DNA of 43,226 nt from a bacterium. GTDB taxonomy: Bacteria; Auribacterota; UBA3054. Positions 25,020-27,965 of the stretch are shown here, piece after piece. The position numbers and the translations under genes are program-made. How positions within the stretch are numbered: position 1 is the stretch's first letter; each line of letters starts with the position of its first letter. Under the pieces are notes generated by a model, which searched no databases, was not told the origin of the DNA, and saw only the letters and a list, made by a program, of their open reading frames with translations. The DNA lies in the NCBI GenBank assembly GCA_017650925.1, contig JAGCDY010000120.1, positions 1 through 43,226 on the forward strand, written 5' to 3'.

Positions 25020-25686
25020 TTTTACTGAGGAGGTAGTTGGCGAAGTCCCAGTCTTTTTTGGTTGTCAGCTTGAAATTGCCGTCGCTGTCATGGCATATCG
25101 CCACCTGGATGCCGGCTTTTTCCAAAATAAGCGCTTCGTCGGTGAGCTTGCCCCAGTCCTCATTTTTATCGAGCGATCCGTAGGCTTTCCTTAGGACGCT
25201 CAGTTTGAAGGTCTGGGGTGTGGAGGCCAGAAAAAGACTGCTCCTGTCGGGAGTATCTGTTATCATGTCGTCGCTGACGACCTTGACGGTGGAGGAGCAG
25301 GGCTGCGCGGCGATGGCGGCGCCCGTTTCTTTCGCTTTCTCGATGGTATTCAGGATGACTTCTCCGGAAACGAAGGGACGGTCGCAGTCGTGGATGACGA
25401 CGATGGCGTCTTCATAGCCTTTCAATGTTTCGACGGCGTTAAAGACTGATCTGGCGCGGCAGCTTCCGCCTGAGATCACTTCGGCCCGGTCTTTCAAAAG
25501 GCTTTTGAATTCATTTTCCCTGCCGGGCGTTACCGGAATGATCGTCTTTGCTATGGGAAGGTCCTGAAAGGCTTCCAGAGTCCTTGCTAAAACGCTTTTG
25601 CCGCAAAGGGGAGTCGTGAGCTTGTCGAAGCCCATGCGGGAGGCTGTTCCTGCGGAGGGGATGATGGCGATAACGGGAAGATCCAT
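25012..25686 (-). CDS. ispD: 2-C-methyl-D-erythritol 4-phosphate cytidylyltransferase
   Basis: This 224-residue enzyme couples CTP to methylerythritol phosphate in the MEP route to isoprenoids. It has the nucleotide-binding IIPSAGTASRMG followed by a Lys, the GGSCRARSVFNAVE block, VVIHDCDRPFV, STPQTF, and the C-terminal TDEALILEKAG and NFKLTTKKDW. Isoprenoids made this way include undecaprenyl phosphate, the carrier for the surface glycans that the next gene may extend. The first loop has GTASRMG where GxGxRMG is usual, a modest variant. The start overlaps the previous stop by one base (TAATG). Confidence 0.88.
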   Translation of the reverse strand: MDLPVIAIIPSAGTASRMGFDKLTTPLCGKSVLARTLEAFQDLPIAKTIIPVTPGRENEFKSLLKDRAEVISGGSCRARSVFNAVETLKGYEDAIVVIHDCDRPFVSGEVILNTIEKAKETGAAIAAQPCSSTVKVVSDDMITDTPDRSSLFLASTPQTFKLSVLRKAYGSLDKNEDWGKLTDEALILEKAGIQVAICHDSDGNFKLTTKKDWDFANYLLSKNA

Positions 25687-27509
25687 TAGAAAAGGGAAGT
25701 TTGTCCGCGGCTCTCTATGAAGCGCTCGTCTTCTGAGACCGCGTCTTTTTCGCCTTTGATCATGAGGCCGAAGTTATAGTCGAAAAGGTTCGTTAGGAGC
25801 TGCTGGTCGGGGACGGATATGGGAAGGAATCCGCTGTCGCAGCCGGCGTTCACGGTCTTGAGCCAGTTCTGTATCTCCTCCGGGCTGTCGCCGGGATTCG
25901 TCTCAAGCAGAGCGTAGGGCGGAATGTTGTGGCGCAGCGCCTCCGCGTCCGGATCGTGGAAGGGCAGGAAGCCGAAGATCTCGGGGAAGAGGCGTTCGTC
26001 CAGAACCGAGAATCGTTTGCCGAAATCTCTTCCGTAGCCCGTGACGAGCTGAATGTCGAAATAATAGGCGCCGGCCAGCCTGTGGAGGATCTCCCTTGAG
26101 GCGCTGAGGATCGTGGAGGCGATCCGGAAGCTTTCCTCGCTTTTGTCCTGGCCGCAGAAGGCGGAGACCGCTTCCCTTAAGCCGATGAGCTCGCAGCCCG
26201 GGATATCGGACATTCTCAACTGCCCGTTGGCCTGGGCGTAGAGGCGGTATTGGCGGCAGGCGTGCACAGCCGCCTCGAGGGAAGGCTGGAGGTCAAGCAG
26301 GAGCTGCTCGATGTTCGCTTCCTTGTTCTTGTAGACGATCCTGGGAAGGTTGACGGCGATGAGCTGCGAAATGGGCGTCAGGTCGTTTTTCACCCAGAGG
26401 ATGTTGTGGCCGAGTTTGGCCAGTTCTACCATGATGCCGGCGGCCTTTTCCTTTTCCTCGATCTCGCCTTCGAACTGGAAGATCAGATCTTCTTTGGGTT
26501 CCAAGGATCTTATCAGGTTGGCGGCGGTCTCCGCTTCGGAAACGGGGAAGCTGAAGTAGAAGGTTCCTTTGAAAGCGGAGGCGGTCTCTATCGTCTCAAT
26601 GACGCGCTCCCTCGGGCAGTTTTTCAAAAATTCCGAGTCGAAGACGAGCGTCAGGTTGTTGCAGAGATAATCCTCGAGCTTCTTGAATTCCGTTATGAGC
26701 TCCCTGCGGCCCGTTTCCGCTTTGACTTCGAAACGCTCTATGTGGCGGGAGTAGGGATGCCTTAAGCCGCCGATGTCAATGAGGCCCTGGCGGTGCGCCA
26801 TGGCGACGTCTTCGGAGTAGATGCGCGAAAGCGAGTAGGGGAGCGAGATCCTGCTGCCGAGCTTGCTGTTGAGGGTCTCGGGTTCGGAGAGGCGCTTCTG
26901 AAGCTCGTCGTAGGGGATCGTGACGGAGGAGCGCTGGCGGAGGGAATTGGCGTAGCCTCTGGACAAAAGCTCGGAATCGACCAGGGCCCTGATCAGCGTC
27001 GTGGTGACTATCGAGAGGCCGGAGGAAAGCACGCGCTTTTCGACTTCCTGGGCGATAGCTTCCGCGGCGGAATGCTTGACGTGCGCTTCCTGCTCCAGGG
27101 CTCTTACGATGAAGGCGCGGTTCCAAGGGCGGGAGTTCTGTTCGTTGCCGGTCATGACGGAGACCGTGCTGTCGGCGTCCAGAAGCGAGATCTGCTGGGG
27201 CTTTATGACGGTGGTCTTGGAGCGCTGCTCGTCTCTGGCGACCCTGTAGTCGAGATAGATGGCGCTGGCCCTGGCGCTGTAGCCTTTTTCCAGCGCTCTC
27301 GCGACCGTGACGGCCACGTCGCTGGTCTGGGGAGGCTGCTGGGGGAAGGCCTTCCCGAGATGCATGGCGATGGCGTAGGCCGCGTCCTCGGCGTATTCGG
27401 CGCCGGGATCCTCGGCGGCTATGAGCGCCGCCTGGATGCTGCGTTTCAGCTTGCCGATGTCAAAGCTGACAAGACGGCCGTCGCGTTTTCTGACATGGGT
27501 CGGGAGCAT
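25686..27509 (-). CDS. NrdD-like protein with two ATP-cone domains and no visible glycyl-radical site
   Basis: This 607-residue protein starts with an ATP-cone (VRKRDGRLVSFD, residues 6-17, to about 95) and has a second cone-like segment at about 127-190. The rest resembles anaerobic ribonucleotide reductase NrdD: AMAHRQGLIDIGGL (about 237-249), VNLPRIVYKN, CELIGLREAVSAFCG (from Cys439) and YGRDFGKRFSVLDERLFP. An active NrdD ends with a glycyl-radical motif such as RVCGYLG; here the C-terminus is ESRGQTSLF and the motif is absent. The protein is also shorter than usual. It lies three bases after nrdR, whose product senses nucleotides with the same ATP-cone. I infer a regulatory or inactive homologue; alternatives are an unusual reductase with a separate radical subunit. 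Confidence 0.72.
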   Translation of the reverse strand: MLPTHVRKRDGRLVSFDIGKLKRSIQAALIAAEDPGAEYAEDAAYAIAMHLGKAFPQQPPQTSDVAVTVARALEKGYSARASAIYLDYRVARDEQRSKTTVIKPQQISLLDADSTVSVMTGNEQNSRPWNRAFIVRALEQEAHVKHSAAEAIAQEVEKRVLSSGLSIVTTTLIRALVDSELLSRGYANSLRQRSSVTIPYDELQKRLSEPETLNSKLGSRISLPYSLSRIYSEDVAMAHRQGLIDIGGLRHPYSRHIERFEVKAETGRRELITEFKKLEDYLCNNLTLVFDSEFLKNCPRERVIETIETASAFKGTFYFSFPVSEAETAANLIRSLEPKEDLIFQFEGEIEEKEKAAGIMVELAKLGHNILWVKNDLTPISQLIAVNLPRIVYKNKEANIEQLLLDLQPSLEAAVHACRQYRLYAQANGQLRMSDIPGCELIGLREAVSAFCGQDKSEESFRIASTILSASREILHRLAGAYYFDIQLVTGYGRDFGKRFSVLDERLFPEIFGFLPFHDPDAEALRHNIPPYALLETNPGDSPEEIQNWLKTVNAGCDSGFLPISVPDQQLLTNLFDYNFGLMIKGEKDAVSEDERFIESRGQTSLF

Positions 27510-27512
27510 CGC

Positions 27513-27965
27513 TTACTTGTTGTCCCTCACTTTGTTCAGCGCGTCCTCGAAATCGCCGACCGCCTGGAACTGCAAATAGACGGAGGCGAAGCGGACGTAG
27601 GCGACCTGGTCGATGGCCTTCAGTTTTTCCATCACTATGCGCCCGACTTCCGTGGTCGGGATCTCTCTTAGGTGCTCCTGCTCGGCCTTGTTGAGGACGG
27701 CCTGGACGATGTCGTCGAACTGTCCGACCGAAACAGGCCTCTTGCGGCAGGCCTGCCTGAGGCCGCCTAAGATCTTCTCTTTGTCGAAGTCTTCCCTCGA
27801 TCCGTCCTTTTTAATGACCATTAAGGGCGCCTCGACCACTTCGTAGGTGGTGAAGCGGTGGCCGCAGGCAAGGCATTCCCGGCGGCGCCTTATCGCGGAA
27901 TCGTTGTGGGCGGTGCGGGAGTCGATGACCTTGCTTTCAACATGATGGCATTTCGGGCAGAGCAT
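27513..27965 (-). CDS. nrdR: Transcriptional repressor NrdR
   Basis: This 150-residue protein is a complete NrdR. An N-terminal zinc ribbon has Cys3, Cys6, Cys31 and Cys34, and an ATP-cone begins at VIKKDGSREDFD. NrdR binds ATP or dATP and represses ribonucleotide reductase genes when deoxynucleotides are plentiful. The adjacent downstream gene encodes an ATP-cone protein of the reductase family, which supports this role. An extended -10 box lies about 31 bases upstream. I see no clear paired NrdR box in the short promoter region. Motifs and length are canonical, so the call is firm. Confidence 0.96.
   Translation of the reverse strand: MLCPKCHHVESKVIDSRTAHNDSAIRRRRECLACGHRFTTYEVVEAPLMVIKKDGSREDFDKEKILGGLRQACRKRPVSVGQFDDIVQAVLNKAEQEHLREIPTTEVGRIVMEKLKAIDQVAYVRFASVYLQFQAVGDFEDALNKVRDNK

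Follow-up and report, generated by a model that had tools for sequence, protein, structure and literature searches.

A conserved, non-catalytic NrdD descendant encoded beside nrdR in a rumen bacterium and its relatives

Many bacteria regulate DNA-precursor synthesis through NrdR, which, to our knowledge, has been described as working alone. It is under ATP/dATP control and forms cone–cone pairs (PMC12176259). ATP-cones are also found in class III ribonucleotide reductases, NrdD (PF13597, TIGR02487; ATP-cone type, PDB 9d3x and 8p23), whose NxN substrate flap is described in PMC11226230. Here we analyse a 43,226-nucleotide stretch of DNA (the window), which is contig 115 of a 1.98-Mb, ~90% complete draft genome of a rumen bacterium; its close relatives are ruminant-gut metagenome assemblies, and the comparison set for its phylum comprised 44 genomes. 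Families within this set carry our handles f1, f2 and so on.

Three genes form a block in the window:

27513..27965, minus strand: nrdR, Zn-ribbon and ATP-cone transcriptional repressor, 150 aa
25686..27509, minus strand: pNrdD, NrdD-derived and non-catalytic, 607 aa, two ATP-cones
25012..25686, minus strand: ispD, third gene of the block (PF01128 168 bits and synteny)

The identity of nrdR follows from TIGR00244 (177 bits against a cut-off of 124.65), with PF22811 and PF03477 also matching. The initial annotation placed an NrdD-like protein with two ATP-cone segments three bases after nrdR. This spacing is correct, both genes lying on the minus strand, and Pfam, hhalign and Foldseek all bear out the domain assignment, with the strand now given as minus. 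At the other end of pNrdD, its stop is overlapped by the ispD ATG in the window, an arrangement found in f1.

By profile comparison, AlphaFold modelling and Foldseek, pNrdD is a member of the NrdD-type fold and shares sequence homology with it. Pfam detected both ATP-cones above cut-off and NRDD at 22.1 bits, below the cut-off of 26.2; the f2 orthologue L022, searched on its own, clears that cut-off (39.8 bits). A single-sequence phmmer search of the PDB returned just a weak NrdD match (E 0.57), which a profile search then resolved by finding class III reductases (9d3x, E 1.6e-29), and hhalign of ten orthologues against seven full NrdD proteins gave a probability of 100% (E 4.9e-50). The AlphaFold model has a mean pLDDT of 77.9, with values below 50 in the linker (95-128) and the tail (590-607), and its top PDB matches in Foldseek were the class III NrdDs 9d3x, 8p2c and 4col (probability 1.00). 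The profile and structure comparisons suggested at the outset thus recovered NrdD homology, and an unrelated fold is not indicated. The protein divides as follows:

27231..27497, minus strand: ATP-cone 1 (residues 5-93), intact VRKRDGRLVSFDIGKL roof motif; PF03477 43 bits
27126..27224, minus strand: inter-cone linker (residues 96-128), predicted disordered, pLDDT <50 over 95-128
27180..27194, minus strand: QISLL, clamp-motif-like, within the inter-cone linker (residues 106-110)
26922..27128, minus strand: ATP-cone 2, degenerate, without the KRDG roof; PF03477 26.8 bits
26745..26924, minus strand: N-terminal part of the NrdD core (residues 196-255), NxN-flap segment deleted in the alignment with f17, f7 and f6 NrdDs
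26376..26744, minus strand: condensed barrel middle (residues 256-378), both conserved NrdD cysteines gone
25755..26375, minus strand: C-terminal half of the NrdD core (residues 379-585), containing the NLP, GLREA and LFPEIFGFLP motifs
25962-25991, minus strand: LFPEIFGFLP, lineage-specific motif inside that half
25689..25742, minus strand: disordered C-terminal tail (residues 590-607), in place of the Zn site and glycyl-radical domain

Like class III NrdDs of the ATP-cone type, pNrdD has an N-terminal ATP-cone, the core helices and the NLP and GLxEA regions; unlike them, it has two cones, a condensed barrel, a length of 607 aa and a gene adjoining nrdR, and it lacks the flap, the conserved cysteines, the Zn site and the glycyl-radical domain. 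With the NrdR repressor it shares an ATP-cone and an adjoining gene, but neither the Zn-ribbon nor a DNA-binding domain. Pfam and the alignment both place the roof motif VxKRDGxxxxF in pNrdD, the condensed barrel middle is the folded part with the lowest conservation, and the C-terminus reads RGQTSLF-COOH throughout the genus. Separately, we observed that all ten orthologues of set A4 have LFPEIFGFLP unchanged, at a place where NrdDs vary; it is a possible interface.

Is pNrdD still a reductase? We aligned its active-site regions with the double-cone NrdDs of f17, f7 and f6 from the same phylum and found that (i) the cysteines invariant in the A5 NrdD set (C274 and C478 of L040) correspond to non-Cys or deleted positions, none standing at an NrdD position in the window clade; (ii) the NxN flap segment is absent; and (iii) the protein ends short of the Zn site and the glycyl-radical motif. 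The same genome carries a separate, complete NrdD of 770 aa (RRITGY, 676 NRDD bits), followed by a 166-aa protein that by eye we take to be NrdG; the complete f1 NrdD has an ATP-cone of its own. Pairwise dN/dS values of 0.09-0.28 indicate purifying selection on pNrdD, the tightest constraint falling on cone 1 (0.03-0.10 in pairs with the window). Because the flap, both conserved cysteines, the Zn site and the radical glycine are gone, and a separate complete nrdD is present, the alignments strongly support pNrdD as a catalytically dead reductase. The initial annotation had suggested this from a missing glycyl-radical site and a length below that of active class III enzymes; no such motif was found in the protein, and 607 aa compares with 770 aa for the complete NrdD of its own genome.

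pNrdD orthologues, 30-97% identical, were found in four families, in 13 of the order's 15 genomes, most of which are incomplete; in all 13 they lie between nrdR and ispD. nrdR occurs in exactly those 13, the two genomes lacking pNrdD also lacking nrdR, so that the pairing surveyed here is conserved in every nrdR-bearing genome of the order (13/13). The order nrdR-pNrdD-ispD is kept in f1, f2, f3 and f4, and these are just the three genes that blastp found in common between the window ORFs and the f2-f4 contigs, some of which are short. The pNrdD frame is intact in members of the order, save at contig ends or at an N-run in one assembly, and tblastn against phages and plasmids gave no match. 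There is thus good support for a non-catalytic NrdD descendant that is conserved as the partner gene of nrdR. As a side observation, within the L089-L116 set of NrdR proteins, those of f1-f4 have a Zn-ribbon-to-cone connection (IE-AP) one residue shorter than in the remaining NrdRs of the alignment.

The working reductase is not the same throughout these families. In f1 it is the complete NrdD only; f2-f4 have PF02867-family proteins and no full NrdD. From their length and start, we take the latter to be probable class II enzymes, and a search for an ATP-cone in them gave no match. Since pNrdD persists while the working reductase differs between f1 and f2-f4, it tracks nrdR and not one enzyme. 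Pairs of sites resembling NrdR boxes were found upstream of f1 nrdD and upstream of the f17 nrdR-nrdD operon, each with a score that 0/500 Markov shuffles attained; upstream of the window nrdR-pNrdD, the best pair was matched by 176/500 shuffles and none stands out.

Relatives in other families show further forms of NrdD. Complete double-cone NrdDs occur in f6 and f7. The gene after nrdR in f17 encodes a double-cone NrdD of ~800 aa that lacks the radical glycine; an ~98-aa ORF with RIVGYFSRIENWN comes next, and then an ~240-aa ORF resembling a radical-SAM activase. A search of these split-NrdD genomes turned up no PF02867 reductase.

L040:7669-10385, L041:1426-4140, L043:7673-10391, L079:1126-2313: f17 split class III reductase, with separate peptide RIVGYFSR(I/V)ENWN

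The f17 protein (L040, L041, L043) resembles pNrdD in following nrdR and in having two cones and an NrdD-type body, but it retains the cysteines, the flap and the Zn site. A radical glycine on a neighbouring peptide in relatives had been named as grounds against loss of catalysis: the arrangement does occur in f17, with cysteines and Zn site retained there, whereas both are missing from the window clade. The protein encoded after nrdR in f5 has 164-166 aa and consists of cone 1 and part of cone 2 (L095:2001-2492, L096:1980-2477). In a tree of N-terminal regions, f1-f4 grouped as a single clade with 100/100 support, and f5 and f11 fell outside it. A clade of f5 with f1-f4 was not firmly rejected (p-AU 0.071), and a single loss of catalysis may have been shared by them at that level of support; a loss shared with f11 was rejected (p-AU 8.6e-5). 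A second NrdD descendant, condensed independently, is found in f11; it has 468-516 aa and one cone, and its gene lies downstream of a dcd-like gene (L071:568-2115, L072:643-2046). Two further loci were observed: in G029 (L063:1108-3304) the NrdD ends TCPHHVE, and a second ORF with MAKCGEKMEVYSRVVGYF, preceded by AGGAGAG, is either a further detached radical peptide or the result of an assembly error; in G018 (L044:972-4127, minus strand) a 1052-aa NrdD has a C-terminal extension that contains CLLC and gives a weak, sub-threshold thioredoxin-like match of 12.6 bits.

What might pNrdD do beside NrdR? Persistence across several families suggests reuse as a regulator, and to our favoured reading, a pseudo-reductase serving as adenine-nucleotide-sensing partner of NrdR, we give about an even chance. 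The ancestor would have been a class III reductase with two cones, encoded in one operon with nrdR; it would have lost catalysis after other reductases took over and been kept for its sensing cones and NrdD-type scaffold. Cone 1 would most likely bind ATP/dATP, and pNrdD could modulate NrdR, for example by co-assembly through the cones, so that reductase genes would answer to the nucleotide pool; nucleotide binding, NrdR contact and a regulatory effect are what we infer here. Several observations count in favour: constraint peaks in cone 1 whereas the catalytic parts have been lost, f5 has a cone-only protein beside nrdR, nrdR synteny is exclusive, and pNrdD is independent of reductase class. 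Other points count against: NrdR has no such partner in most bacteria that we know of, operon neighbours need not interact, we know of no link between NrdR and ispD though it lies in the same block, the working f1 NrdD already has a cone, and the evidence base is 15 genomes of the order, mostly incomplete. Of the initial proposal of a dead reductase reused as a sensor or as a regulator with NrdR, the loss of activity stands; reuse has indirect support from exclusive synteny, from selection strongest in cone 1 and from persistence across the switch of reductase class.

pNrdD might instead be an allosteric subunit or inhibitor of the working reductase, giving or reinforcing ATP/dATP control in trans. 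The cone-less PF02867 reductases of f2-f4 fit this idea, and cones can move between reductase subunits (LbNrdB, cited in PMC11226230), but its partner would have to switch from class III in f1 to the PF02867 type in f2-f4 with the plan of pNrdD unchanged, the f1 NrdD is already cone-bearing, and the gene sits with nrdR and with neither reductase; we consider this unlikely. It is similarly improbable that pNrdD serves some nucleotide-linked function independent of NrdR and that nrdR-pNrdD-ispD is merely an old operon: surroundings turned over between families while nrdR-pNrdD stayed, and f5 also has a cone protein beside nrdR, against which stand the equal conservation of ispD in the block, the overlap of its start with the pNrdD stop in f1, and the invariance of LFPEIFGFLP. 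pNrdD could also be an active reductase whose glycyl radical is supplied by a separate peptide. Such a split arrangement is seen in f17 (NrdD without glycine, ~98-aa peptide, activase-like gene); for pNrdD we regard it as very improbable, and the missing cysteines in particular disfavour it, the window clade also lacking the NxN flap and Zn site and its host having a complete nrdD. A free-standing glycyl-radical ORF or second small NRDD match was sought in that clade's genomes and none was found. Finally, the lost active-site parts could mark a decaying pseudogene, a reading to which we give almost no credence: the dN/dS test disfavours it, and the frame is intact, contig ends and one N-run apart, with conservation across 30-97% identity.

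The disordered segments of pNrdD offer a further lead. The inter-cone linker carries Q[IP]SL[FLI] in 12/12 orthologues in the alignment, and such a motif was absent from 5/5 double-cone NrdDs of f6, f7 and f17; f1 pNrdDs also end in QTSLF, a C-terminal copy that f2-f4 lack and that only one genus has. In the literature the clamp motif is given as QL[SD]LF, or QxxLF in its wider form, and is located at the C-terminus of PolC (PMC12309361 and PMC3919608). In these genomes PolC ends in QLSLF (f1) or QMSLF (f2), and DnaE carries QRSFF, which we take to lie at the expected clamp-motif place. Of the 1354 distinct ORFs with 100 aa or more in the loci compared, just PolC and pNrdD end in the motif, and the background rate of Q.SL[FLI] is ~0.1 per 1000 residues. 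The two pNrdD copies, spotted post hoc, resemble the PolC and DnaE motif but are candidate sites by sequence. The C-terminal one overlaps the ispD start region, so its codon conservation in f1 may partly reflect ispD. The f5 C-terminus, EQL[NS]LSIN, was left uncounted as a clamp motif; by eye it aligns with the cone-2 DQLSTSLIR of f17 and is maybe a truncation effect. As a doubtful extension, pNrdD could be a nucleotide-sensing adaptor that docks on the sliding clamp via QxSL[FLI] and relays replication and dNTP state to NrdR, which would tie reductase expression to active forks.

A literature search, largely outside subscription journals, found no paper joining NrdD with a pseudoenzyme, nor a stand-alone or inactive cone paralogue; novelty is unproven thereby. 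Full, split and shrunken NrdD forms occur within one small phylum, which makes the route of descent testable. If pNrdD is a conserved pseudo-reductase partner that outlived a change of reductase class, the cones of reductases would be recyclable into expression control; clamp docking, if true, would connect replication to dNTP supply directly at the molecular level.
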